Assembly (NCBI RefSeq): GCF_003813775.1
Contig: NZ_RPDH01000002.1
Coordinates: 1 to 64,000, forward strand
Direction: 5' to 3'
Length of the DNA stretch: 64,000 nucleotides
Source of the DNA: Chitinophaga lutea
GTDB lineage: Bacteria > Bacteroidota > Bacteroidia > Chitinophagales > Chitinophagaceae
Positions 1,555 through 58,328 of this stretch are shown here, piece by piece; the stretch's first letter is position 1; every line of letters starts with the position of its first letter. Both the position numbers and the translations under genes were made by a program. Under the pieces are notes generated by a model. It was not told the origin of the DNA, did no database searches, and was given only the letters and a program-made list of their open reading frames with translations.

Positions 1555-2418
1555 ATGATTAGTGTTACTGCCGCCATGCAGCAAATAGCGGCCTGCCGGA
1601 CAAGCTGGGGAACAGAACAGGTGCAGCCGGAACAAGCTACAGGCAGGGTGATCTCCGAAGCGCTCACCGACCAGGAAGGAAATAAACTGCTCGATACCGG
1701 TACCCGCATCAATTTTCAGCACCTGGCCCTGCTCGTGTCCGCGGGCATCCGCCAGCTGAAGGTGCACCGCCCGCCGCGCGCGGCGATACTGACGGTGGAA
1801 GGAGATACGGCGAACAACTTCACTATCGCCGGGCTGCTCGAACAAAACGGCATCATTCCGGAAACAAACGAGCGGGCCACGGGGCCGAAAAAACTGGAGG
1901 CGGCGATGAAAGAAGCGCTGGAAACGGACCTGCTCGTCATCTGCGGGGAAGAAGGGGTGCACAAGGTATTGCAGGAGCTTGGGGTGGAACAGGTGTTCCA
2001 CAAAGTTCGGGCGAAGGCGCTCAAATCTTTCTGGCTGGGTTACAGCCCCACCAAAACGAGGGTCATGGTGTTCCCGGCGAACACCTTCTCGGTGCAGGTA
2101 GGCGGCAAGCTCTTCCTGGAGTCGTACATCCGGGCATGCTGGCAGCTGCCGGCCGTGCGGCCCTGGTTGCTGCCTTTCATGGAGAACCGGTCGGCGGTGA
2201 GCTCGTTCGATGAATTTGTGCCGGCCATGATGGTGAACAAAAACGGCCTGAAAATCAAAGGGCTTCACTTTCCCAAAACCGCGGAACTGGCGGCGGCCGC
2301 ACAGGCGCATGGCTTCATTTACCACAGCACCGACGCGGGCAGCCTGGAGCCGGGCTCACTCGTGCCGTTCTATCCCTGGGTGGAAGGGGTGTCGCCGGCG
2401 GTCAACGGGCAACACTAA
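1555..2418 (+). CDS. Shortened MoeA-like protein (molybdopterin molybdenumtransferase relative)
   Basis: MoeA inserts molybdenum into molybdopterin and is usually about 400 aa; this protein is 287 aa. Family landmarks are present: ISVTAAMQQI at the start, ATGRV at 28-32, DTGTRI at 47-52, HRPPRAAIL at 71-79 and FHKVRAK at 148-154. The segment that should hold SAMDGYA and all of domain II, between GRV and TGTRI, is missing; only about 15 residues remain. Active-site motifs are also altered: GGVSxGDYD appears as CGEEGVHK (130-137), PGKP as ALKS (155-158) and GLPGNP as VFPANTF (172-178). No other molybdenum-cofactor gene is nearby. It is probably not catalytic; a repurposed binding role is inference. 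Its 3' end is duplicated downstream. Confidence 0.65.
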   Translation: MISVTAAMQQIAACRTSWGTEQVQPEQATGRVISEALTDQEGNKLLDTGTRINFQHLALLVSAGIRQLKVHRPPRAAILTVEGDTANNFTIAGLLEQNGIIPETNERATGPKKLEAAMKEALETDLLVICGEEGVHKVLQELGVEQVFHKVRAKALKSFWLGYSPTKTRVMVFPANTFSVQVGGKLFLESYIRACWQLPAVRPWLLPFMENRSAVSSFDEFVPAMMVNKNGLKIKGLHFPKTAELAAAAQAHGFIYHSTDAGSLEPGSLVPFYPWVEGVSPAVNGQH

Positions 2419-2552
2419 ACGATTCAACGGGATGTGTCTGTCTCACGAGGCGCTGTCCTTCGTCAACGGCCAACATTAAACGATCCAACCGGAACTCATA
2501 TATCTATCCCGAGAGGTGTCGCCCTCCGTCAACAGACAATACCAGGCGACTA
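2389..2552 (+). repeat. Tandem decayed copies of the MoeA-like gene's 3' end
   Basis: The gene ends in gtcaacgggcaacactaa at 2401. Near-identical words start at 2462 (gtcaacggccaacattaa) and 2528 (gtcaacagacaatacc), so the spacing is 61 and 66 bp. The first copy keeps the stop codon and the downstream acgatccaac; the second has lost the stop. The preceding words (gtgtcgccggcg, gcgctgtccttc, ggtgtcgccctcc) also align. Confidence 0.8.
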
Positions 2553-2573
2553 TTATCAACCAATATCAAAAAA

Positions 2574-2598
2574 GGGTGCCGCTTCCGCAGCGGCACCC
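2574..2598. terminator. Hairpin terminator between convergent genes
   Basis: A perfect 10-bp stem, GGGTGCCGCT and AGCGGCACCC, encloses a 5-base loop. It is preceded by six A residues and followed by ttcgatttt, so it can act for both the MoeA-like gene and the PorP gene coming from the other side. Confidence 0.75.
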
Positions 2599-2661
2599 TT
2601 CGATTTTATGGAAAAGCTGAAAAAACGATTCGTATTGCTTTGACCCGGTGGGTGTCCGGAA

Positions 2662-2884
2662 AATTTCCACATTGGTATCGGTACCCGTAAAGCGCCGCCG
2701 CTATCTCACCGTCCTGATCTTTATCTGCAATCCAATGCTTTGTGGTCCCGGTGATTATTCATGTCCGTTACCTTGGCAGCCTGAGCTTTATCTCTTACGT
2801 TCACTTCTATGCTGTCCGTTACCTCGGCAGCCTGCTTTCTCCCCAATCCAACGTACATACCTCTACGCCGCATCCACGCACCTC
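2662..2884 (-). repeat. Tandem decayed copies of the PorP gene's 3' end
   Basis: Read on the minus strand, the gene ends GGATTGGGGATTAAGATC then AGGCTGTTCAGGTAA. Related words follow downstream at about 2812-2850 (GGATTGGGGAGAAAGCAGG, then CTGCCGAGGTAA), 2762-2795 (AGATAAAGCTCAGGCTGCC, then AAGGTAA) and 2700-2735 (GGATTGCAGATAAAGATCAG, then a TAG). A fourth remnant at 2662-2690 matches the tccacattggt word of the coding tail. Units are about 50-65 bp long and increasingly decayed. Confidence 0.7.
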
Positions 2885-3805
2885 TTACCTGAACAGCCTG
2901 ATCTTAATCCCCAATCCAAAATTCGCATCCACATTGGTTTTAGGCCCGGACGTCTGGGAGGTATAGCTCGCCTGCACTTCAATGGAGTTCTTGAACTGGA
3001 AGCCCACCCCGGCCGACACGGCATTGTTGGTATGGTACATCGCGAACATATTGACGGTGTTGCGGTAGAAGTTCACCTTCGCGCCCACATCACCCACCGG
3101 CTTGTAGCCTTTCACCCCGCGGAATGCCACCAGCGGTTCGATGGAATTGATCTGCGGGCATTTGGTGCCGAGTTTGTAAGACGCGGCCACGAAGAAGCTG
3201 GGTGTGCTGCGGGGCTCCACCTCGTCGCTGTTCCTGAACGTGCGGGTGATGTTCGGCAGGGAGGCCTGCAGGGTCAGTTTGTCGTTCGTATAGGCGATCC
3301 CGAAATCGGCCTGGAACTCGCTGCCCTTTTTGTTGAACGCCTCCACATAGGGGTCCTGTGGCATGTTTTTGCGTTTCTCGATGTGGCGGTTATCGATCGC
3401 GCCGGTCAGGCCGATGTGCAGGGATTCGTTGTCGTCTTCACTCAGCCGCAGATGATAGGCATAGGTGAGGGCCACCCGGTTTTGTTTGAGAGGACCGGCC
3501 TGGTCGTTGAACACGGTCAGACCGATGCCCATCTTTCTGCCCAGCCGGTAATCGCCGGTGAGCGCGAACGTTACGGGAGCGTCGGGTACTTCTTTCCATT
3601 GTTTGCGGTAACCGACGTTGATGCTCAGCCCGGAATCGGCGCCGGCCATCGCAGGGTTGGCGAGGTAGCGGTTCTGGAAATAGGAGATCATCAGCGGGTC
3701 CTGCGGGGGCATGGTTTTGTCGAAGCCCTGTGCGTGAAGCAGAACTGGCATTAAAGCCATGCAAGTCATTAATAATAAACGGGGAGTAAAAAATCTTTTC
3801 ATCAA
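2885..3805 (-). CDS. PorP/SprF-family type IX secretion membrane protein
   Basis: 306 aa with a signal peptide (MMKRFFTPRLLLMTCMAL up to LLHAQ). The mature protein opens with PLMISYFQNRYLANPAMAG, the family signature in which a tyrosine-rich stretch is followed by NPAxAG. The rest is a series of amphipathic beta strands ending in a terminal aromatic-basic strand (KIRLFR), which fits an outer-membrane barrel. Family members sit in the outer membrane and help secrete or anchor type IX cargo, usually one encoded next to them. No cargo gene is adjacent here, so its partner is unknown. It is transcribed away from TamL across a 580-bp gap that contains 90-bp repeats. Confidence 0.85.
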   Translation of the reverse strand: MMKRFFTPRLLLMTCMALMPVLLHAQGFDKTMPPQDPLMISYFQNRYLANPAMAGADSGLSINVGYRKQWKEVPDAPVTFALTGDYRLGRKMGIGLTVFNDQAGPLKQNRVALTYAYHLRLSEDDNESLHIGLTGAIDNRHIEKRKNMPQDPYVEAFNKKGSEFQADFGIAYTNDKLTLQASLPNITRTFRNSDEVEPRSTPSFFVAASYKLGTKCPQINSIEPLVAFRGVKGYKPVGDVGAKVNFYRNTVNMFAMYHTNNAVSAGVGFQFKNSIEVQASYTSQTSGPKTNVDANFGLGIKIRLFR

Positions 3806-4011
3806 ATATCAATTAGGTACAGGAAAATGAATGGGTCAAATCAAGTCGGACAGCAAATATAGAATATAATTTAAATTAAACAAAAACATTAATATGAATA
3901 AAAGTGAATGGGAGTAAGGGTTCTGGCGAATAACGGATTGGTTTTTAATCACAAAAAAAGAGCAGTTGAATAACTGCTCCAGCTGAAAAATCTTTAAAAA
4001 TATGGAGGAAA
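3806..4011. other. AT-rich intergenic stretch upstream of the PorP gene
   Basis: About 200 bp of AT-rich DNA that should hold the PorP promoter. At 3951-3986 there is a short hairpin, gagcagttgaataactgctc, which could end transcription coming from the tamL side. Nothing that looks coding was seen. Confidence 0.4.
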
Positions 4012-4281
4012 GGGCGACGTAACGGTCATAATGAGCCTGGTTGATGCTTCAATCCCGGCATTACACCCCGGTATTTGCCCTCCGGGAAGGCAATGAAAAA
4101 AGGACGATGTAACGGTCATAATGAGGTCGATTGATACTTCGATCCCGGCATTGCACCTCGATATTTGCCCTCCGGGAAGGCAATGGGAAAAGGGCGACGT
4201 AACGGTCATAATGAGATCGGTTGATGCTTCAATCCCGGCATTGCACCATGATATTGTGTCTACGGTCAAAGGCAACAGGAA
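4012..4281. repeat. 90-bp tandem repeat, three units
   Basis: The word aacggtcataatgag occurs at 4021, 4111 and 4201, an exact 90-bp spacing. Units 1 and 2 run through aatcccggcatt and tttgccctccgggaaggcaatg; unit 3 starts to diverge from about 4248 but keeps a ggcaacaggaaa end. Because 90 is divisible by three, frames stay open on both strands, but neither has a start context or plausible composition. I read it as non-coding. Confidence 0.85.
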
Positions 4282-17863: not shown

Positions 17864-18583
17864 ATGGGGAATCAATATTTTCAATTCAAACAGTTCACGG
17901 TGCAGCAGGCGGGGAGCGCCATGAAAGTCTGTACGGACGCCTGCATCCAGGGGGCGTTCACGGCGGCGTATATACGCGAACAGCTGCCGGGCGCAAGTCC
18001 CGTGCTCGACATCGGCGCCGGTACCGGCCTGTTAAGCCTTATGCTGGCCCAATCCGGCAACGGCACGATAGACGCCGTAGAGCTGGATGCCGCGGCGGCG
18101 CAGCAGGCGGCTGAAAACTTCGCCGCGTCGCCCTGGAGCGAACGCCTCCGCGTATTTCACACGGACATTGCCCATTTCAACCCGGCGCAACGGTACCCCT
18201 TCATCATCACCAATCCCCCTTTTTTCGACAACGACCTGCAAGGCCCGCACCAGCGGCGCACGGCGGCGATGCATACCGTTACGCTGGGGTATGAGGCATT
18301 GCTTGAAGCCATCATCAGGCTATTGGCGCCCGGCGGTTCCTTTTCGATCCTGTTGCCCCGCGGGGGATTCGACCGCTTCCGGCGGATGGCGGAAAATGAA
18401 GGATTTGTATTGCGGAAATTGCTGGAGGTACGGCAAACGACCGGCCACAGCCCCTTCCGGAGCATCGGCATATTCGGCCCTGCTGCGGAGCCGCAGCGCG
18501 AAGAGCTGGTGATTTACAATGAGCAAAGGCAGTACACCCCGGCCTTTGTTACGCTGCTGAAGGATTATTACCTGTACCTGTAG
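17864..18583 (+). CDS. trmN6: tRNA1(Val) (adenine37-N6)-methyltransferase (TrmN6/YfiC type)
   Basis: 239 aa from the ATG at 17864, one base after the tsaD stop. It has the family opening FQFKQFTVQQ with a methyltransferase fold: motif I VLDIGAGTGLLSLMLAQ (residues 47-63), an acidic motif II (AVELD, 71-75) and the adenine N6 catalytic motif NPPF (117-120). The enzyme makes m6A37 in tRNA-Val. The pairing with tsaD makes a small tRNA-modification operon in which both genes act on position 37. Its last 12 codons are duplicated downstream. A related SAM enzyme such as PrmC is less likely because of the FxFKQF start. Confidence 0.88.
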   Translation: MGNQYFQFKQFTVQQAGSAMKVCTDACIQGAFTAAYIREQLPGASPVLDIGAGTGLLSLMLAQSGNGTIDAVELDAAAAQQAAENFAASPWSERLRVFHTDIAHFNPAQRYPFIITNPPFFDNDLQGPHQRRTAAMHTVTLGYEALLEAIIRLLAPGGSFSILLPRGGFDRFRRMAENEGFVLRKLLEVRQTTGHSPFRSIGIFGPAAEPQREELVIYNEQRQYTPAFVTLLKDYYLYL

Positions 18584-18712
18584 CATAATCGGTCAGGTAG
18601 GCATACCGCCTGGTAAGGCGATCGGCGTCGTTACGCTGCTGAAGGATTATTACCTGTAGCATAATCGGTCAGGTAGGCATACCGCTTCGTAAGACCGTTG
18701 GCATCCGCGATG
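18549..18712. repeat. 82-bp tandem duplication spanning two convergent gene ends
   Basis: The word ttacgctgctgaaggattat begins at 18549 and again at 18631, 82 bp apart; both copies continue through tacctgtagcataatcggt and then caggtaggcataccgc. Copy 1 has a 6-bp extra ctgtac. Copy 1 carries the last codons and stop of the plus-strand methyltransferase. Copy 2 carries the last codons and stop of the minus-strand dehydrogenase. The tail of each gene is therefore also present as a second copy beyond its stop. Confidence 0.9.
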
Positions 18713-19860
18713 GTCGCTTTTTCGATCATGTCGCTCCGGCCTTTCATCAATTCATCGAACACATATTTCATCAGGTGATCGCCGAAGAACTGCGAAGCGT
18801 CGCGCGGCAGTTCGTTAGGGAGGTTGCCCACGCACATCATGGTCACGCCGTCTTCATCGTAAGGCCCGGTTTTCTCCCGTGTGTAGCGGTTTACGCCGTA
18901 GGAGGGGTTTTCGATGGTGGCATCGCCCAGGTTGCAGGGAATGGAGCCGTTTTTATCGTCGGTGATGTCCGCGATCACTTTGATGCGGAAATTGTCTTTG
19001 GTGAGGTCGTCCCAGCTGAAGAGGCGCTCGATGTTCTTATCCCAGTAGATGCCGTTGAGGAGGATGTCGCTGCACGTCACGTACGGCAGGAATTTACAGT
19101 CGTACGCGCCGGGGTTGGCATGGAAGTCTTCCCGGCTGTAGGTTTTATCCGTTTTGCGGAGATACAGCTCGCCTGCCTTCAGCTGTGTATAGACCGGGTA
19201 GGCGTATTCGTTGATGAGGAATTCCTCCGGCGGGATGTATTTGATGCCCAGCAGGCCCATTACTTCCAGGATGCCCGCCGTTACGCGGCCGGAGCCTGTG
19301 GCGACGATTTTCAGCGGGGGGAGCTTGACGCCGAAGTAGTGGGTGATGAGCTCCTGGAAGTCGTGGCACTCGTGCACCCTTTTGAAATCAAACGTGCCGG
19401 TGCGGCGCCCGTATTCGAGCAGCCCGTTGTGCGCGCCCACGACGCCCGCGAAGAAGCCGAAGCCCAGGATGCGCTGGCCGTCTTCATGCACGAGGCATTC
19501 ATAGTCGATGAGCGTGATTTTTTTCTCCAGTATATCGTGCAGCATGGCCTGGTTCTGCGGCTGCTGCTTTTTGGTGTGCGAAAAGAAAAGGTAGGTTTTG
19601 CCCGGCAGCAGTTTTTCCACCGGCACTTCTTTAATCCCGAGGAGGATGTTGCAATGGGACAGGTCTTCACTCATCCGGATGCCGGCCGCGCGGTATTCCT
19701 CGTCCTTAAAACAGCGGTGGGGAGAGGGTTGTACGGTGATCAGCACATGCGGGTAATGCGTCATGATCCACTGGCACTGCATGGGGGTGAAAGCGACGCG
19801 GTTGTCCTGCGGTATTTTTTCCTCCCTGATGAGCCCGATCTGTACTACGTGGTTTGCCAT
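18631..19860 (-). CDS. Saccharopine dehydrogenase-like / alanine dehydrogenase N-terminal domain protein
   Basis: 409 aa from the ATG at 19858-19860 (MANHVVQIGLIREEK); the frame is open 27 codons further up but that part reads as intergenic. The AlaDH/PNT N-terminal fold is clear: IGLIREEKIPQDNRVAFTP at residues 7-25, then ILLGIKEVP and TYLFFSHTKKQQPQN, which is specific to the lysine-forming saccharopine dehydrogenase (Lys1-like) branch, and GFGFFAGVVGAHNGL. A glycine-rich nucleotide site ATGSGRVTAG follows. The substrate is uncertain; an NAD(P)-linked amino-acid dehydrogenase is the safe call. It is convergent with trmN6 and divergent from the HscB-like gene. Confidence 0.82.
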   Translation of the reverse strand: MANHVVQIGLIREEKIPQDNRVAFTPMQCQWIMTHYPHVLITVQPSPHRCFKDEEYRAAGIRMSEDLSHCNILLGIKEVPVEKLLPGKTYLFFSHTKKQQPQNQAMLHDILEKKITLIDYECLVHEDGQRILGFGFFAGVVGAHNGLLEYGRRTGTFDFKRVHECHDFQELITHYFGVKLPPLKIVATGSGRVTAGILEVMGLLGIKYIPPEEFLINEYAYPVYTQLKAGELYLRKTDKTYSREDFHANPGAYDCKFLPYVTCSDILLNGIYWDKNIERLFSWDDLTKDNFRIKVIADITDDKNGSIPCNLGDATIENPSYGVNRYTREKTGPYDEDGVTMMCVGNLPNELPRDASQFFGDHLMKYVFDELMKGRSDMIEKATIADANGLTKRYAYLTDYATGNNPSAA

Positions 19861-50147: not shown

Positions 50148-53100
50148 ATGCCTATGAATCATTCTATGAAACGAGATCGCATCAGGCTTCTTTTAACGGC
50201 CTTCTTCACCATTTGCGCGTTTGCTGCCGCCGGCCAGCTGCCTTCCAGTCCCTGCGGGACGAGCGGAGGCAAGCGGGCGGACGTGCTCGGTACGGAAGCC
50301 CAATACAGCAGTCCCGGCGCCAGCGCTCCCGTTTTCACGATCCCGGCAGGCACAAAATCCATCTCAGTATACGTTTCGTCCGAAACCGGGAAGACCTCCG
50401 GGGGGAACGACTTTGCGCAGGGCGATGAGGATTTTCTTTCCATCAGCGCCATCATCGACCTGACGTCCAACACTTCTTCCGGTTATGTCAACTATGCCAA
50501 GAGCACGTTCATGGACGGCTCGGGCACCAATCTCTATGGGTGGAAAAACGCCCCCCTGGGCAGTTTTATCCCGGTCGGCGCCCGTATCGGAGATGCGGTG
50601 CCGGAGTTGAACAACGTCAATTTCCTGGTCCAGGGCAATACGCTGACCATCACACAAAGCAACAGCGGCGTCCATTCCTCCTTCTACGTACAATATTTAT
50701 CGCCTTTCAACAATTCCCTGAACCCGATGGAGCCGCAGGTAAAAGCACTGCTGCATGGTACGGCTGTTGCCAATACCGACCTGGTAATGCCCATTCCCGC
50801 GGGCGCCGACGTCATCTTTATTTCCGGGAAGGGTACTAACTCGAGCGCCCGCGATCTGAACACGGCTGAAGGGTCGGAAGAAGGGTATTCCAATCTGCGT
50901 TTTACGATCGACCTGCAAAAGGGCACTACAACGGGTTTTATCACCGTGGCCAACGGCGGTTCGGCCAACAAGCGCTCTACCTATGCCATCAACAACCTGA
51001 GCAGTTCATATACGGGCCATATGGTGGCCGCCGGCCCGCCGGCCGTATCCGGCGACAATACCAACGGGAAGTCCGGCAATGAGGGCTCGGTCGGCATTTA
51101 TGACCCGGCTATTTACGTACTGAACGGTAACCTGTACATCAAACGGGACGCCGACTACGCCCGCGACTTCGATGATGCCTACGTGGTGGAGTTTTACAAA
51201 CGGGCAGGGCAGGGTATGAGCGCGGAGTTTGTAAGCTCGGAGATCCAGTTCATTCCTACCGGGCTCAGTTCCACGGCAGGCGTATCCAGAACGTTTAACA
51301 TCCCGCCGGGCACCAATGCCGTATACCTGACCGCCACGGGCAATGCCGTCAACAAAAACTCGGAAAGCAACGAAAATTCCCTCGAAGCATACGCCTACAT
51401 CGACCTGACCGCGGGTACCGCCACGGGTTACTTCTACCAGCAGGTGGGCCTGGATCAGACCACGCGCAGGGATGATAACTACGCCTTCAAGGGCGTGCCT
51501 CTCAACAACAGCAGCACCCGCGCCCATACCAATACCGTCGGTTTCAAGGGACCCTATGCATATGATATTTCCTTTTCCCTCTCGGCCGACAAAAGCCAGC
51601 TGACGGTTACCAACAAAACCGGCCTGGCCAACCCCGACTACCAGTTACTGCTGTCGATCGACAACTTCGGCTCCAAGCCCGACCTGGCTTTCGGTACCCC
51701 GGCCGTTACGTTTACAAAATATCCTGGCACCAAAACGATCAAGACAGACCTCACGGTTTGCAATCCTGGCGCCGGCAACAGTACCCAGGGGGTGCCGTTT
51801 GCCGTGTACCAGGGTAACCCGGTTACCAACCCCCAGGCGAAACTGCTGTACACCGGTACCCTGCCGGAAGCTCTGCAGGCCGGCGAATGCAAAGCGTTTT
51901 CTTTCGACCTGGACCTGGGTAGTTACGACAACCTGAACATCGGCCTTACCATTGTGCTGAACGACGACGGCAGTTACGTTTCCGGCGGCATCGGTGGCAC
52001 GGTGGGCACCGTCTTTACGCTGGCCTCCCTGGCCAGCCAGCATGCCGGCTTCGAGGAATGTTATTACGACAACAACCTCGTTACCGGCACGATTGCCGTG
52101 AACAATGCGCCGGTGATCGATCCGGACCCCAACAACAGTTCGGGCGCCCCCGGCACCTACAGCTACCTGAACTATTTTGATGCGGGCAGCACCGGGGCCA
52201 CTATCATGGATGCGGATATGAGCATCACCGACCCGGACGCGCCGGCTATTTCGGGCGCTACCATCACGCTGACCAACCGCCCGGATGCCGGTAGTGAAAC
52301 ATTGTTCCTGAACGGCGTACTGCCGGCAGGCATTACCATTTCCGGCAATAACACGAATGTGGTACAGTTGTCCGGCCAGGCATCGCTGGCGGATTACACC
52401 GCCGCCATGAAAATGCTGGAGTACCGCAATAGTAATTTTTCGCCGGTTACCGACAACCGCATCATCACCACGGTGGTGACCGACGGCATTGAATCCAGCC
52501 CGCTCGCCACCACTACGATCGTAATACAGACCACGCCACGTATCAACGTGGCAGGCAACGGCATCACCATCGCAGACGACGCCACCGCCAGGGTGGCCGC
52601 AGACGGTACTGATTTCGGCATGGCTGCCGGCAGCGTGATCACACATACTTTTTCCATTCATAATGTAGGCACCGGCAGCATCAATCTCACCGGTTCGCCT
52701 GCCGTGACCATTACCGGCGCTGGTTTCAGCATCGCGGCACAGCCCGGTTCAAATGCCCTCATCAGCGGCGGCAGCACCACGTTCGAAATCAGTTACGATC
52801 CCACGGCGCAGGCCGGCGGCACACATACCGCCATCGTCCGGATACAGAATAATGATCCTGATGCAGACAGGGCCGACTATACGTTTACCATTTCCGCCAC
52901 GATCAATATTCTGCCGACGGTGATGGACAACAGTGTTACCGGCGAAGAAGACCACACCTACGAATTCAAAGCCACTGATTTCTCAAACGCATTCAGCGAC
53001 GGCAACGGCACAACGTTATCTGCGATCCGGATCAACAGCCTGCCGCAGCACGGCAGCCTCCTGCTGAACGGCGTTGCTCTTACAGCCGGGACCGAAGTAC

Positions 53101-56100
53101 CATACGCCAGCCTGGAGCTGCTGACCTTTGTGCCGGACGCGCAGTGGAACGGTGTTACGGGGCTGGATTGGAACGCTACCGACGGCACAGGTTATTCACC
53201 TGCCCCCGCGCATCTGACCATCAACATCACCGCCGTGAACGATGCGCCGGTCATCACTCTTCCTGCCGGGGCGGCAGTTACCGAGGACGTGCCCTTTGCC
53301 GTGGAAGACATTGTTTTTTCAGATGTGGATGTGGAAACTGGCACCGTTACCGCTATATTTTCAGTGGCCGGTGGTACGTTAAGCGCGCTGTCGGGGAGCG
53401 GGGTGACCGTTGGCGGCCTTGCCGATGCGCTTAAACTGGAAGGCCGGCTCTCTGCCATCAATGCATTCATAGCGGCAGGGAAACTTTCCTATTCAGCCCC
53501 GCAGGCTGTAGTGGGCGCCATTTCCCTGCTGGTGGATATTTCGGATAACGGGAACACGGGAACGGGCGGCGCTTTGCACGATACAAAATCGATGCTCCTG
53601 AACATCATCACGGTCAACGATGTACCGTCAGCCACAGACGACAACCAAACCACCAATGAAGATACGCCGGTGAACGGTGCGGTGAGTGGTGCGGATGCGG
53701 ATGGAGACGTGCTCACTTTCAGCAAGGGGACCGATCCCGCGAATGGAACCGTGATCGTGAATCCGGACGGCAGCTATACTTATACGCCGAATGCAAATTA
53801 TGTCGGCACAGACCACTTCACGATCACTGTGGACGATGGCAACGGTGGCACCGCCGCAGCGAATGTAGATATTACGGTTTCCCCGGTGAACGATGCGCCC
53901 TCCGGTACAGGCGATCATAAAACGACGGCTGAAGATACGCCGGTCGATGGCGCGGTAAGCGGCTCCGATGCGGATGGGGATGCGCTGGTATTCAGTAAAG
54001 CGTCAGACCCTGTAAATGGTGCCGTGGTAGTGCGTACGGACGGCACCTATACGTATACGCCGGACGCAAACTACGTGGGCACCGATATTTTTACGATCAC
54101 CATCACTGATGGTAACGGTGGTGCCGCTACCGTGACTGTCAACATCACCGTTTCTCCCGTTAACGATGCGCCCACCGGTACCGGCGATAACAAAACGACG
54201 GCTGAAGATACACCCGTCAATGGCGCGGTAACCGGTTCGGATACAGATCTGGATGCACTTACCTTTACCAGGGCCTCGGAACCGGCGAACGGCACCGCAG
54301 TGGTGAATCCGGATGGCAGTTATACCTATTCGCCGAAAGCGGACTACGTTGGTACGGACAACTTTACGATCACCGTCGACGATGGTAACGGTGGCACTGC
54401 TACCGTGACTGTCAATATCATCGTATCTCCCGTTAACGATGCACCTACCGGTACGGGAGACAATAAAACCACGCCCGAGGATACGCCGGTCAGCGGCGCG
54501 GTAAGCGGTTCGGATACAGATCTTGATGCGCTTACCTTTACCAAAGCCTCGGAACCGGCAAACGGTACAGCCGTGGTGAATACGGACGGCAGCTATACCT
54601 ACTCGCCGAAAGCAGACTATGTCGGCGCGGATCACTTTACCATCACTGTCGAAGATGGCCATGGCGGTACGGCCACGGTAACCGTCAACATCACCGTATC
54701 TCCCGTCAATGATGCACCTACTATTTCAGATGATAATAAAACCACCGAAGAAGACACGCCGGTAAACGGCACCGTATCCGGCGCAGATGCAGACAGCGAC
54801 GCGCTTACCTTTACCAGAGCTTCTGAACCTGTGAATGGCATCGTGGTGGTCAATACGGACGGGAGTTATGTTTATACGCCGAAAGCAGACTATGTTGGGA
54901 CAGACCATTTTACGGTCACTGTCGCCGACGGCAACGGGGGCACTGCTACTGCAACCGTTAACATTACCGTGTCTCCCGTCAACGATGCGCCCACGGGTAA
55001 GGGGGACAATAAGACTACTTTGGAGGATACCCCGGTAGACGGTATGGTAAGCGGTGAAGATGCAGATGGGGACGCGCTTACATTCACGAAAGCAGCAGAG
55101 CCGGCCCATGGCGCCGTGACAGTGAATCTGAACGGTACTTACACGTATACACCGGGTACTGATTACGTCGGTTCTGATAACTTTACGGTGACCGTGAGCG
55201 ATGGCAACGGCGGTACTGCTACCGTAACCGTCAACATCACCGTATCTCCCGTTAATGATGCGCCCACCGGTACAGGAGACAACAAAACAACGCCTGAGGA
55301 TACGCCTGTAAGCGGCGTGGTAAGTGGCACCGATGCGGACGGCGATGTACTTACTTTCACCAAAGCTTCGGAGCCTGCAAATGGTGCCGTAGTGGTGGAT
55401 GCAAGCGGCAGCTATACTTATACACCGAGTGCAGATTATGTCGGCGCAGACAACTTTACCGTTACAGTGAGCGATGGTAAGGGCGGCACTGCAATTGTAA
55501 CTGTCAACATTACGGTTTCTCCCGTTAATGATGCGCCCACCGGTACGGGCGATAACAAAACCACCCCGGAGGATACACCTGTAAATGGTGCGGTGAACGG
55601 GGCAGATACGGAAGGCGATGCACTTACTTTTACCAGGGCTACGGAACCTGCTAACGGCACCGTAATCGTAAATCCGGACGGCAGCTATATGTACACGCCC
55701 AAAGCGGATTATGTCGGCGCAGACCACTTTACGATCACTGTTTCCGACGGCAACGGCGGCACTGCTACGGCGACCGTCAACATCACCGTAACGCCGGTTA
55801 ATGATTCGCCCACCGGCACCGGCGACAGTAAAACCACGCCCGAAGATACACCGGTAAACGGAGCGGTAACCGGCACCGATACGGATGGCGATGCACTGAT
55901 TTATTTAAAGGCCACCGACCCCGTTAACGGTACCGTGAGGGTAAATGCCGACGGCAGTTACATCTACACGCCGAACGTAAACTATGTTGGTGCGGATCAC
56001 TTTGCGGTTACGATCAGCGATGGCAATGGTGGCGCAGCGACGGCAACCGTCAACATCACCGTAACACCGGTTAACGATGCGCCTGCCGGCAGCGGTGATT

Positions 56101-58328
56101 CAAAAACGACCGATGAAGATACCCCCGTCAGCGGTTCCGTAACAGGGACGGATACGGACGGAGATCAGCTCATATTCACTACATCCGGCCAACCCGCCAA
56201 CGGCACGGTGATTGTCAATACCAACGGTACCTATACGTACACACCGAACCCTGATTTTAGCGGGCCGGACAGTTTTGTAATCATCGTCAGCGACGGGAAG
56301 GGCGGTACCACCACCGTGACAGTTCACATCACCGTGGCGCCCGGCAATGATGCGCCTGTGGGGAAAGGGGATGCAAAATCCACTCCCGAAGATACTCCTG
56401 TAAACGGCGCTGCCAGCGGAACCGACAAAGACGGTGATGCGCTCACGTTCACAAAGGCCTCAGATCCCCTGAACGGCAGCGTAACGGTGCGTACGGATGG
56501 TAACTATACCTACACGCCGAATCCGCAATATAACGGCGCGGATAACTTCACCGTCACCATCAGCGACGGCCACGGCGGCACCGCGACAGTTACGGTGCAG
56601 ATCGAAGTATTGCCGGCGAACGACGCGCCAACCGGCACGGGCGACAACAGGACTACCGAAGAAGATGTGCCGGTAAACGGTGCTGTGACCGGTACGGATA
56701 CGGACGGGGATCAACTGACATTTACGCAGGCGGGGAACCCGGCACACGGCTCCGTGGTCGTGCATGCCAACGGCACCTATACCTACACCCCGGATGCAGA
56801 CTATAATGGCACAGATCAGTTCACGGTAAACATCAGCGATGGCCACGGCGGTTCAGTGACTGTTATGGTGAACATTACCGTTACGCCGGTACACGATGTG
56901 CCCACAGGTAAAGGAGACGCCAAAACCACCCCGGAAGACACCCCGGTGAGCGGCACCGTTACGGGCAGCACCGGCGACCGGGTGACGCTCGTGTATTCCG
57001 GCGGCACAACGCCGGCGCACGGGTCGGTGGAAGTGAATGCCAATGGTGCCTATACCTATACGCCTGAAGCCAACTATTTCGGCCAGGATAATTTTAACAT
57101 CATCATCTCCGATAAACACGGCGGCACCATCACCGTACCCGTCAATATACTGGTAACACCGGTGAACGACCTGCCTGCCGGCACGGGCGATGAAAAAACG
57201 ACGCTTGAAAATACGCCTGTCAGCGGCCGCGTGAAAGGCAGCGACATCGATGGCGATGCCCTCGACTTCAGCAGGGCTACCAACCCCGCCCACGGAGCGG
57301 CAACGGTGAATGCGGATGGCTCGTATACTTACACGCCCTCGTCCGGATATACCGGCCCGGACCAGTTCGATATCAATATTTCGGATGGTAAAGGTGGCAC
57401 CGTTGCGGTGACCGTACGTATCACGGTAAGCCCCGTTACGGGCGGCATCGCGCTGGTGAAAACCGCGGCGCCGGACAAGATCAATATCGTGTATACCCTT
57501 ACGGTGACCAATACCAGCAATGTTGCACTGCACCAGGTCACCATCACCGACCCGATGCTGGGCTTAAAACGGACACTGCCGGGTGAATTGCAGCCGGGGG
57601 CCTCGGTTTCCGTCACCGCCACCTACAAAATCACGCAGGAAGACCGTGAGCGCGGAAAAGTCACCAATACCGCCGAAGCCACCGCATTAACACCAGTCAA
57701 TAAAGAGGTGAGGGACGTTTCCGGTACTACCAGCACGAACAATACGTCCACCGTAACTATCGTGACCGGGGCGCCGCAGGCAGTGAACGATGCCGCCGGC
57801 ACCCGGGTGAACACTCCGGTGACCGTGCCGGTGCTCGAAAACGACAATGCCGGTGCATCTACGTTTAACAAAAGGAGCCTGCGCATCATTACCCAGCCCA
57901 GGTACGGACAGCTGGTGCTGCATGGCGACGGCAGGGTTACTTACATACCGGAAAGTACTTACCGTGGCGATGATGCCTTTACCTACCGCGTGGACGACGT
58001 AGACGGCTACACGACCAATATCGCCGCGGTGAAGATCACCGTGGAAACAGAAGGCCTCGAGATTCCGACACTGTTTACGCCCAACGGCGACGGCAAAAAC
58101 GATGTGTTCGAAATCCGCGGGCTACATAAATATGCGGAAAATGAGCTCGTGATCGTGAACCGATGGGGCAACGAAGTATACCGGCAGAAGAATTATCAAA
58201 GCAACTGGAGAGGCGATGGATTGAACGAAGGGACCTATTATTACCTGTTGCGGGTCAAAAAAACCGGTTCTTCCAATTGGGAGGTACTGAAAGGGTTTAC
58301 CACCCTGATCCGTAAATTCAAACAATAA
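50148..58328 (+). CDS. Giant type IX-secreted adhesin with 14 tandem 91-residue repeats and CHU_C sorting domain
   Basis: 2726 aa. I use the ATG at 50148 because GGGGGAGG ends four bases before it; ATGs at 50154 and 50166 also precede the signal peptide (KRDRIRLLLTAFFTICAFAAAG). Order: three related 130-160-residue modules (about 53-510); SDYN/FGTP-type linker domains; a choice-of-anchor/ASH domain (about 797-920); two cadherin-like domains; 14 repeats of exactly 91 residues on average (1157-2430), each with EDTPV, GDALTF and GSYTYTP; a DUF11 domain (VKTAAPDKINIVYTLTVTN); a further cadherin-like domain; and the gliding-motility C-terminal domain (IPTLFTPNGDGKNDVFEI, from about 2636), a type B sorting signal. 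It should be surface-anchored or released. PorP/SprF follows 18 bp later. Confidence 0.92.
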   Translation: MPMNHSMKRDRIRLLLTAFFTICAFAAAGQLPSSPCGTSGGKRADVLGTEAQYSSPGASAPVFTIPAGTKSISVYVSSETGKTSGGNDFAQGDEDFLSISAIIDLTSNTSSGYVNYAKSTFMDGSGTNLYGWKNAPLGSFIPVGARIGDAVPELNNVNFLVQGNTLTITQSNSGVHSSFYVQYLSPFNNSLNPMEPQVKALLHGTAVANTDLVMPIPAGADVIFISGKGTNSSARDLNTAEGSEEGYSNLRFTIDLQKGTTTGFITVANGGSANKRSTYAINNLSSSYTGHMVAAGPPAVSGDNTNGKSGNEGSVGIYDPAIYVLNGNLYIKRDADYARDFDDAYVVEFYKRAGQGMSAEFVSSEIQFIPTGLSSTAGVSRTFNIPPGTNAVYLTATGNAVNKNSESNENSLEAYAYIDLTAGTATGYFYQQVGLDQTTRRDDNYAFKGVPLNNSSTRAHTNTVGFKGPYAYDISFSLSADKSQLTVTNKTGLANPDYQLLLSIDNFGSKPDLAFGTPAVTFTKYPGTKTIKTDLTVCNPGAGNSTQGVPFAVYQGNPVTNPQAKLLYTGTLPEALQAGECKAFSFDLDLGSYDNLNIGLTIVLNDDGSYVSGGIGGTVGTVFTLASLASQHAGFEECYYDNNLVTGTIAVNNAPVIDPDPNNSSGAPGTYSYLNYFDAGSTGATIMDADMSITDPDAPAISGATITLTNRPDAGSETLFLNGVLPAGITISGNNTNVVQLSGQASLADYTAAMKMLEYRNSNFSPVTDNRIITTVVTDGIESSPLATTTIVIQTTPRINVAGNGITIADDATARVAADGTDFGMAAGSVITHTFSIHNVGTGSINLTGSPAVTITGAGFSIAAQPGSNALISGGSTTFEISYDPTAQAGGTHTAIVRIQNNDPDADRADYTFTISATINILPTVMDNSVTGEEDHTYEFKATDFSNAFSDGNGTTLSAIRINSLPQHGSLLLNGVALTAGTEVPYASLELLTFVPDAQWNGVTGLDWNATDGTGYSPAPAHLTINITAVNDAPVITLPAGAAVTEDVPFAVEDIVFSDVDVETGTVTAIFSVAGGTLSALSGSGVTVGGLADALKLEGRLSAINAFIAAGKLSYSAPQAVVGAISLLVDISDNGNTGTGGALHDTKSMLLNIITVNDVPSATDDNQTTNEDTPVNGAVSGADADGDVLTFSKGTDPANGTVIVNPDGSYTYTPNANYVGTDHFTITVDDGNGGTAAANVDITVSPVNDAPSGTGDHKTTAEDTPVDGAVSGSDADGDALVFSKASDPVNGAVVVRTDGTYTYTPDANYVGTDIFTITITDGNGGAATVTVNITVSPVNDAPTGTGDNKTTAEDTPVNGAVTGSDTDLDALTFTRASEPANGTAVVNPDGSYTYSPKADYVGTDNFTITVDDGNGGTATVTVNIIVSPVNDAPTGTGDNKTTPEDTPVSGAVSGSDTDLDALTFTKASEPANGTAVVNTDGSYTYSPKADYVGADHFTITVEDGHGGTATVTVNITVSPVNDAPTISDDNKTTEEDTPVNGTVSGADADSDALTFTRASEPVNGIVVVNTDGSYVYTPKADYVGTDHFTVTVADGNGGTATATVNITVSPVNDAPTGKGDNKTTLEDTPVDGMVSGEDADGDALTFTKAAEPAHGAVTVNLNGTYTYTPGTDYVGSDNFTVTVSDGNGGTATVTVNITVSPVNDAPTGTGDNKTTPEDTPVSGVVSGTDADGDVLTFTKASEPANGAVVVDASGSYTYTPSADYVGADNFTVTVSDGKGGTAIVTVNITVSPVNDAPTGTGDNKTTPEDTPVNGAVNGADTEGDALTFTRATEPANGTVIVNPDGSYMYTPKADYVGADHFTITVSDGNGGTATATVNITVTPVNDSPTGTGDSKTTPEDTPVNGAVTGTDTDGDALIYLKATDPVNGTVRVNADGSYIYTPNVNYVGADHFAVTISDGNGGAATATVNITVTPVNDAPAGSGDSKTTDEDTPVSGSVTGTDTDGDQLIFTTSGQPANGTVIVNTNGTYTYTPNPDFSGPDSFVIIVSDGKGGTTTVTVHITVAPGNDAPVGKGDAKSTPEDTPVNGAASGTDKDGDALTFTKASDPLNGSVTVRTDGNYTYTPNPQYNGADNFTVTISDGHGGTATVTVQIEVLPANDAPTGTGDNRTTEEDVPVNGAVTGTDTDGDQLTFTQAGNPAHGSVVVHANGTYTYTPDADYNGTDQFTVNISDGHGGSVTVMVNITVTPVHDVPTGKGDAKTTPEDTPVSGTVTGSTGDRVTLVYSGGTTPAHGSVEVNANGAYTYTPEANYFGQDNFNIIISDKHGGTITVPVNILVTPVNDLPAGTGDEKTTLENTPVSGRVKGSDIDGDALDFSRATNPAHGAATVNADGSYTYTPSSGYTGPDQFDINISDGKGGTVAVTVRITVSPVTGGIALVKTAAPDKINIVYTLTVTNTSNVALHQVTITDPMLGLKRTLPGELQPGASVSVTATYKITQEDRERGKVTNTAEATALTPVNKEVRDVSGTTSTNNTSTVTIVTGAPQAVNDAAGTRVNTPVTVPVLENDNAGASTFNKRSLRIITQPRYGQLVLHGDGRVTYIPESTYRGDDAFTYRVDDVDGYTTNIAAVKITVETEGLEIPTLFTPNGDGKNDVFEIRGLHKYAENELVIVNRWGNEVYRQKNYQSNWRGDGLNEGTYYYLLRVKKTGSSNWEVLKGFTTLIRKFKQ
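53616..57437 (+). repeat. 14 tandem 273-bp coding repeats (91 aa each)
   Basis: From the first NDVPSATDD to the last ITVSPV is 3822 bp, exactly 14 x 273. Each unit has ND-x-P, (E/T)EDTPV-x-G, D-x-DGD-x-L-x-F, NGTV-x-V, GSYTYTP, Y-x-G-x-D-F-T-(I/V) and DG-GG-(T/S)-x-V-x-V-x-I-x-V. Units 2-9 are most alike and units 10-14 more divergent, suggesting newer expansion in the first half. Confidence 0.95.

Follow-up and report, generated by a model that had tools for sequence, protein, structure and literature searches.

Introduction

Tandem duplication followed by random loss is a model of gene rearrangement in mitochondria, in which a duplication crosses a gene junction, each gene keeps one copy intact and whatever is left over decays. 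Among bacterial repeats, REP elements are dispersed palindromic families. Their units lie behind genes, mainly in convergent and uni-directional gaps (PMC3733652). In prokaryotes, 10-mers repeated at close range are for the most part over-represented in intergenic DNA (PMC4060949); the word "convergent" is absent from the main text of that article. Direct repeats lying close together in bacterial spacers are thus already known. Variable intergenic segments of small size, among them minisatellites, have likewise been described (PMC2884548).

The window covers the opening 64 kb of contig C2 in a Chitinophaga genome of 6.61 Mb. The locus described here lies within it: a MoeA-like gene and a PorP/SprF-family gene converge on a gap of 466 bp (Table 1). 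Its repeats resemble close direct repeats and short tandem duplications of the minisatellite kind in being two or a few neighbouring copies of adjacent sequence, above chance, but they differ in carrying a gene tail with its stop codon and in their bias to convergent ends. Like REP and BIME elements, such units sit downstream of genes, in convergent and co-directional gaps. Unlike them, they are unique to their locus and come from the adjacent gene; we found neither a unit dispersed over many gaps nor a palindromic unit of 20-40 bp. The duplication across a junction recalls the mitochondrial model, but here gene ends of some 50-115 bp are duplicated rather than whole genes, and gene order is unchanged. 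Gene-tail arrays at convergent ends are not described in the literature titles and abstract openings that we covered, a set with few subscription journals in it. Within this scope the tail-copy form, the concentration at convergent ends and the route from overlap to spacer were not found.

Table 1. Positions of the MoeA/PorP gap features and of further duplications in the window
Feature	Position	Strand	Details
MoeA-like gene	1555..2418	+	stop 2416-2418; 287 aa; tail gave rise to the MoeA-side copies
MoeA source tail	2385..2422	+	stop TAA 2416-2418
MoeA tail copy 2	2446..2493	+	core 2462-2493 28/32 identical; stop TAA 2477-2479
MoeA tail copy 3	2512..2549	+	24/31; CAG 2543-2545 at the place of the stop
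Terminator stem	2572..2606	both	perfect 12-bp inverted repeat 2572-2583/2589-2600; single copy; between the copy sets
Stretch with weak partial PorP tail copy 5	2640..2689	-	17/21
PorP tail copy 4	2690..2747	-	20/23; stop TAG 2701-2703
PorP tail copy 3	2748..2801	-	20/25; stop TAA 2768-2770
PorP tail copy 2	2802..2865	-	28/35 against gene; stop TAA 2819-2821; nearest to copy 3 (27/31)
PorP/SprF-family type IX secretion membrane protein	2885..3805	-	PF11751, TIGR03519; stop 2885-2887; tail gave rise to the PorP-side copies
90-bp unit, 2.7 copies	4009..4255		co-directional gap behind Omp85-family gene
Methyltransferase gene, TrmN-like under cut-off	17864-18583	+	ends in left copy of the duplication below
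Tandem duplication (~80 bp) across convergent junction	18548..18693		between genes 17864-18583 (+) and 18631-19860 (-)
AlaDh/PNT-domain protein gene	18631-19860	-	ends in right copy of the duplication above

Results and Discussion

Both gene ends are copied into the gap

The MoeA-like protein has no Pfam match and scores far under the cut-offs of the NCBIfam MoeA/Glp models, so that its sequence suggests only a remote relation to MoeA. It is also short, where about 400 aa would be usual. The protein or a strong relative of it is present in 15 of the 79 genomes of the genus, its own genome counted.

A repeat search recovered the tail of this gene three times in register, at 2385-2422, 2446-2483 and 2512-2549, with the spacings of 61 and 66 bp that a sequence-only reading of this DNA had given. 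Aligned with the source tail, both copies reached identities that none of 2000 shuffles equalled (p=0.0005 each; Table 1), and the local alignment of the tail with the gap downstream scored 44, with a maximum of 30 among 2000 shuffles. On the other side the same search returned words of the PorP tail at 2719/2835/2903, 2702/2886 and 2762/2813. The extra PorP tails follow one another at steps of 66, 51 and 67 bp. The reading had counted about four of them; three are clear (copies 2, 3 and 4 against the gene, each p=0.0005) and the fourth is just a weak partial match (copy 5, p=0.0015 in the shuffles). The PorP tail scored 33 against its downstream gap, compared with at most 26 in 2000 shuffles, and its last 78 nt ranked first, itself included, among the tails scored against that gap (34; next 31 and 28).

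In its central claim, that the gap is made of tandem decayed copies of both flanking ends, the reading is thus borne out by five clear copies. A stop codon is kept at the equivalent place in four of these five, both sides taken together, and is lost in MoeA copy 3; the perfect terminator that had been placed between the two sets is there as well. The further claim that divergence rises with distance from the gene fails, as the identities do not change monotonically (Table 1). Tail copies score nearer to their gene than to one another, as would be expected if selection holds the gene while the copies drift. Only PorP copies 2 and 3 depart from this; from their mutual identity, one was probably derived from the other. 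A custom finder called the terminator on both the + and the - strand, and its stem is the sole inverted repeat of at least 12 bp found in 2200-3100, which speaks against a palindromic repeat unit.

The copies arose within this lineage

Other Chitinophaga retain the convergent gene pair. We examined 16 PorP loci, the present one included, and 13 others gave a gap length: 100, 44, -8, -8, 9, 87, 0, 31, -8, 39, 100, 69 and 101 bases. The value of 31, from genome G044, was counted past an internal MoeA stop and would be longer if taken from that stop. As measured, all 13 gaps are at most 101 bp, against 466 bp here. Left out of the count were G042, whose locus has no MoeA match, and G081, a 65% complete genome in which the MoeA frame is broken. 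In G006, which is not among the 13 and is the only other genome with a strong MoeA relative, the MoeA and PorP protein matches lie 86 bases apart. By eye, several of the short orthologous gaps contain a terminator-like hairpin.

The relatives thus show the single-copy state from which a duplication would be derived. A longer ancestral gene is out as the source, since the gaps measured in relatives are at most 101 bp or the genes overlap. The copies also fit the tails of their own genes better than those of C. alhagiae, the closest relative found (taken here as genome G012). The present tails score 26 and 27 against the MoeA copies and 34, 25, 31 and 23 against the PorP copies; the corresponding C. 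alhagiae scores are 13 and 16, and 12, 14, 14 and 20. This places the origin of the copies later than the divergence from C. alhagiae. Judged from such comparisons, the gap reads as old, decayed tandem copies of both gene ends, made in this lineage.

A young duplication illustrates the scheme

The same window contains a younger case, at 18548-18693, which is the simplest demonstration of duplication across a junction. A 6-base gap and a few substitutions distinguish its two copies. In C. alhagiae a single copy contains both stops, and the genes overlap by 35 bp. We looked up 12 genomes, three of which had no partner gene at the locus; among the nine relatives with a convergent partner, seven (C. 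alhagiae included) have an overlap of 35-38 bp, and the remaining two give 6 and 1254. In the present genome the pair has a gap of +47 and the duplication. The overlap in seven of nine relatives argues for gain here and not loss there. Most likely the duplication separated genes that had overlapped by 35-38 bp and left a spacer of 47 bp between them. This is the sole young event for which a relative retains the single-copy state; as to microhomology, some 2 bases are shared at its junction when read by eye.

The mechanism we propose would begin with a short tandem duplication that starts inside the last few dozen bases of a gene and ends just past its stop codon. The gene-proximal copy would be left whole and the protein unchanged, and a spare tail with its stop would be put into the spacer. 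At a convergent junction the left gene would keep the left copy and the right gene the right copy, so that overlapping genes would come apart. Such an event should be nearly neutral because the junction holds no promoter or ribosome site. Spare copies, not being purged, would then decay neutrally. The duplications themselves would come from slippage or illegitimate recombination; we infer this source, as well as the neutrality and the absence of function. If correct, tail duplication accounts for the repeated stop codons of the spacer, and junction duplication with one copy for each gene gives a concrete, countable way for bacterial spacers to lengthen and for overlapping convergent genes to come apart.

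There are further cases. For the co-directional one at 4009-4255, the aligned blocks on either side stand ~280 bp closer together in C. alhagiae. Elsewhere on the contig, 567358-567574 holds about four copies of a ~50-bp tail, and duplications with steps of 93, 112 and 47 bp lie at 773790-773958, 1206912-1207221 and 1542739-1542918, the last adjoining a short called gene. The 567-kb pair has a gap of 251 bp here and 139 in C. alhagiae; other loci of its protein family have no partner and may be paralogues. At 1206 kb the gaps are 297 and 8. The 773-kb gap, 286 bp here, is 71 in C. alhagiae and -18, -18, 60 and 55 in four more relatives. No repeat scoring at least 30 was found behind any of the 36 relatives' loci analysed, across 12 genomes, for these four pairs, the 18.6-kb one included (12, 12, 3 and 9); four more loci, two from each of two of these pairs, stand outside the 36.

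Across five duplication-bearing pairs, the gap is 47-466 bp in the present genome and -35 to 139 in C. alhagiae. The pairs were picked for having the duplication here, which biases them to longer gaps, so the comparison speaks for derivation and not for a general lengthening trend. Between the 1.6 Mb of the present genome and the stretches of G012, of which C8:1-400000 proved not to be syntenic with it, six gaps could be used. Three had changed length by at least 60, one of them with a duplication; the other two had none, so duplication is not the sole route of gap change.

Duplicated gaps concentrate at convergent gene ends

We searched 1.6 Mb of the present genome (1.2 Mb at first) and 0.4 Mb each of G012 and G057 for ungapped direct repeats that lie 25-250 bp from each other and score at least 38. 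Genes were called by a custom ORF-scoring script and not taken from annotation, and RNA genes are uncalled. Duplicated gaps numbered 21/183 convergent, 20/808 co-directional and 1/183 divergent in the present genome, 5/45, 3/241 and 0/45 in G012, and 3/40, 2/235 and 0/39 in G057. Pooled over the three Chitinophaga (2.4 Mb), this makes 29/268, 25/1284 and 1/267, with convergent gaps ahead of both divergent (p=2.7e-8) and co-directional ones (p=5.5e-10). After shuffling of the gaps, one convergent and one co-directional gap were left at the same threshold in each of three runs.

At score thresholds of 32, 38, 45, 55 and 70, the present genome gave 21, 21, 14, 11 and 6 convergent, 26, 20, 17, 13 and 11 co-directional, and 2, 1, 1, 1 and 1 divergent gaps; per gap, convergent ones were the most often duplicated at all five. 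Ten of the 21 convergent cases extend into the gene tail. When gene tails were compared with the DNA downstream at a score of at least 28, a test in which MoeA itself falls under the threshold, 7/521 3' ends matched in the present genome (0.2 expected) and 3/216 in G012 (0 expected). Gene heads compared with the DNA upstream gave 4/613 (0.2 expected) and 1/240 (0 expected). One region, 367-368 kb, supplies two of the seven 3' matches and one of the four 5' matches of the present genome.

The MoeA/PorP gap is therefore one case among the short local duplications behind gene ends in this Chitinophaga. The suspicion that the process is a repeated one agrees with these counts, as duplications recur at convergent pairs in all three genomes.

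Tolerance behind stop codons or a raised rate

Within 100 bp of a start, none of 43158 bases of divergent gaps is duplicated, and in co-directional gaps the fraction is 0.001-0.021. Convergent gaps have 0.08-0.14 of their bases duplicated at less than 400 bp from a stop. Co-directional DNA at least 200 bp from a start and less than 400 bp from a stop is like them, at 0.04-0.13. Most of the excess behind gene ends thus comes down to the DNA near starts, where divergent gaps have no duplications and co-directional gaps have few. We consider it probable that the MoeA/PorP gap is best explained in these terms: tandem duplication behind stop codons is tolerated, is neutral and then decays.

The main competitor is a mutational hotspot, in which transcription ends or convergent transcription would raise the rate of tandem duplication at 3' ends through positive supercoiling, gyrase cutting, R-loops, or collisions of polymerases or forks. 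Positive supercoils reportedly accumulate where genes converge (PMC8360656), which would suit this idea, as do the pooled excess of duplicated convergent over co-directional gaps and the fall in density beyond 400 bp from stops (about 0.02 against 0.04-0.14 in unmasked DNA), a drop that tolerance alone would not predict. However, once ORFs of at least 75 codons are masked, these far classes become small and inconsistent (0.019 co-directional, 0.013 convergent and 0.101 divergent), and co-directional DNA away from starts is as dense as convergent DNA, masked too, so convergence is not needed.

Terminators divide the evidence further; our finder is insensitive and found them at just 365 of 1149 ends. 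In co-directional gaps with a terminator, away from starts, 0.052 of the bases before it are duplicated against 0.016 beyond it, as a hotspot would have it. Convergent gaps do not favour the transcribed part, with 0.053 inside and 0.052 outside where both terminators were found, and 0.052 inside against 0.186 outside where one was. Because the masked 3' effect is inconsistent and the terminator test mixed, we prefer tolerance and regard a hotspot as unlikely. The sequence-only reading had offered slippage or repair at transcription end points; we keep the slippage as a presumed source and take the end points to be an unlikely cause. The system lends itself to asking whether gene ends are duplicated more often or are merely more tolerant.

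Comparison with E. coli K-12, for which we used 13 stretches totalling 650 kb, bears on the same question. Duplicated gaps there numbered 8/90 convergent, 4/335 co-directional and 1/87 divergent. Taken whole, the convergent fraction does not differ from that of Chitinophaga (29/268; p=0.69). With seven REP-like gaps, recognised by a motif pattern, and one rRNA gap removed, it becomes 0/89 (p=2e-4), and 2/90 if two of the REP-like calls are kept as local (p=0.009). Among the remaining E. coli cases are tRNA clusters and a gene that was missed, since the caller omits RNA genes. These figures suggest that the rate or the retention of duplications differs between lineages, a difference that plain tolerance does not explain. 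A bolder version, which we offer as a long shot, is that a process common to the Chitinophaga lineage repeatedly duplicates stretches of some 50-115 bp at 3' ends, at a higher rate than in other places, drives convergent genes apart and makes new spacer from their tails, and that in E. coli these positions are taken by REP arrays.

We think it improbable that the extra tails were selected, whether as separators against read-through, antisense transcription or overlap, or as RNA elements of the 3' UTR. The longer gaps of the five pairs, chosen as they were for their duplications, and the stops retained in most of the clear copies would accord with such a functional spacer. Against it, the copies are decayed and different at each locus, all 13 measured relatives do without them, and the terminator is single. 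Nor does Rfam hold a family for the gap, its one match having an E value of 0.23 and 20 bits, where the gathering score is 114.

A dispersed or mobile repeat, such as a REP/BIME-like element or a MITE that happens to sit at gene ends, has almost no probability left. In its favour are the position behind genes, which is that of REPs (PMC3733652), and the same orientation bias in the REP-like arrays of E. coli. The MoeA/PorP gap, however, has no second genomic copy beyond chance: when its halves were searched against the 6.6-Mb genome, the matches elsewhere at E<=1 were just one of 19 bases (E 0.65) and one of 26 (E 0.53), which refutes the idea at this locus. Among the 42 duplicated gaps of the present genome, 37 match no other part of the 1.6 Mb, and the five that do comprise two forming a neighbouring pair and three with short, weak matches. 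Together with the short gaps of the relatives, this upholds the earlier view of the units as copies of tails, neither remnants of an ancestral gene nor a dispersed repeat.

Chance resemblance in an ordinary long gap, for which one could cite the three of 1123 other genes' tails that equal the score of the 78-nt MoeA tail against the gap (27) in a weaker test, where that tail ends at the stop and the MoeA match runs on beyond it, is refuted by the shuffle tests of the five clear copies and by the three MoeA-side copies in register, and is in our judgement practically nil.

Other tandem arrays

Two convergent gaps about 2 kb apart on the contig, at 1509159-1509587 and 1511161-1511800, share arrays of a common ~115-bp unit that are about 93% identical, with terminator-like hairpins repeated within the unit. 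Either one array was copied into the second gap or both arrived with a larger duplication. In the window itself, a 273-bp tandem repeat of nine copies occupies 53634-56083, within a long ORF (50166-58328), and probably represents repeated protein domains.
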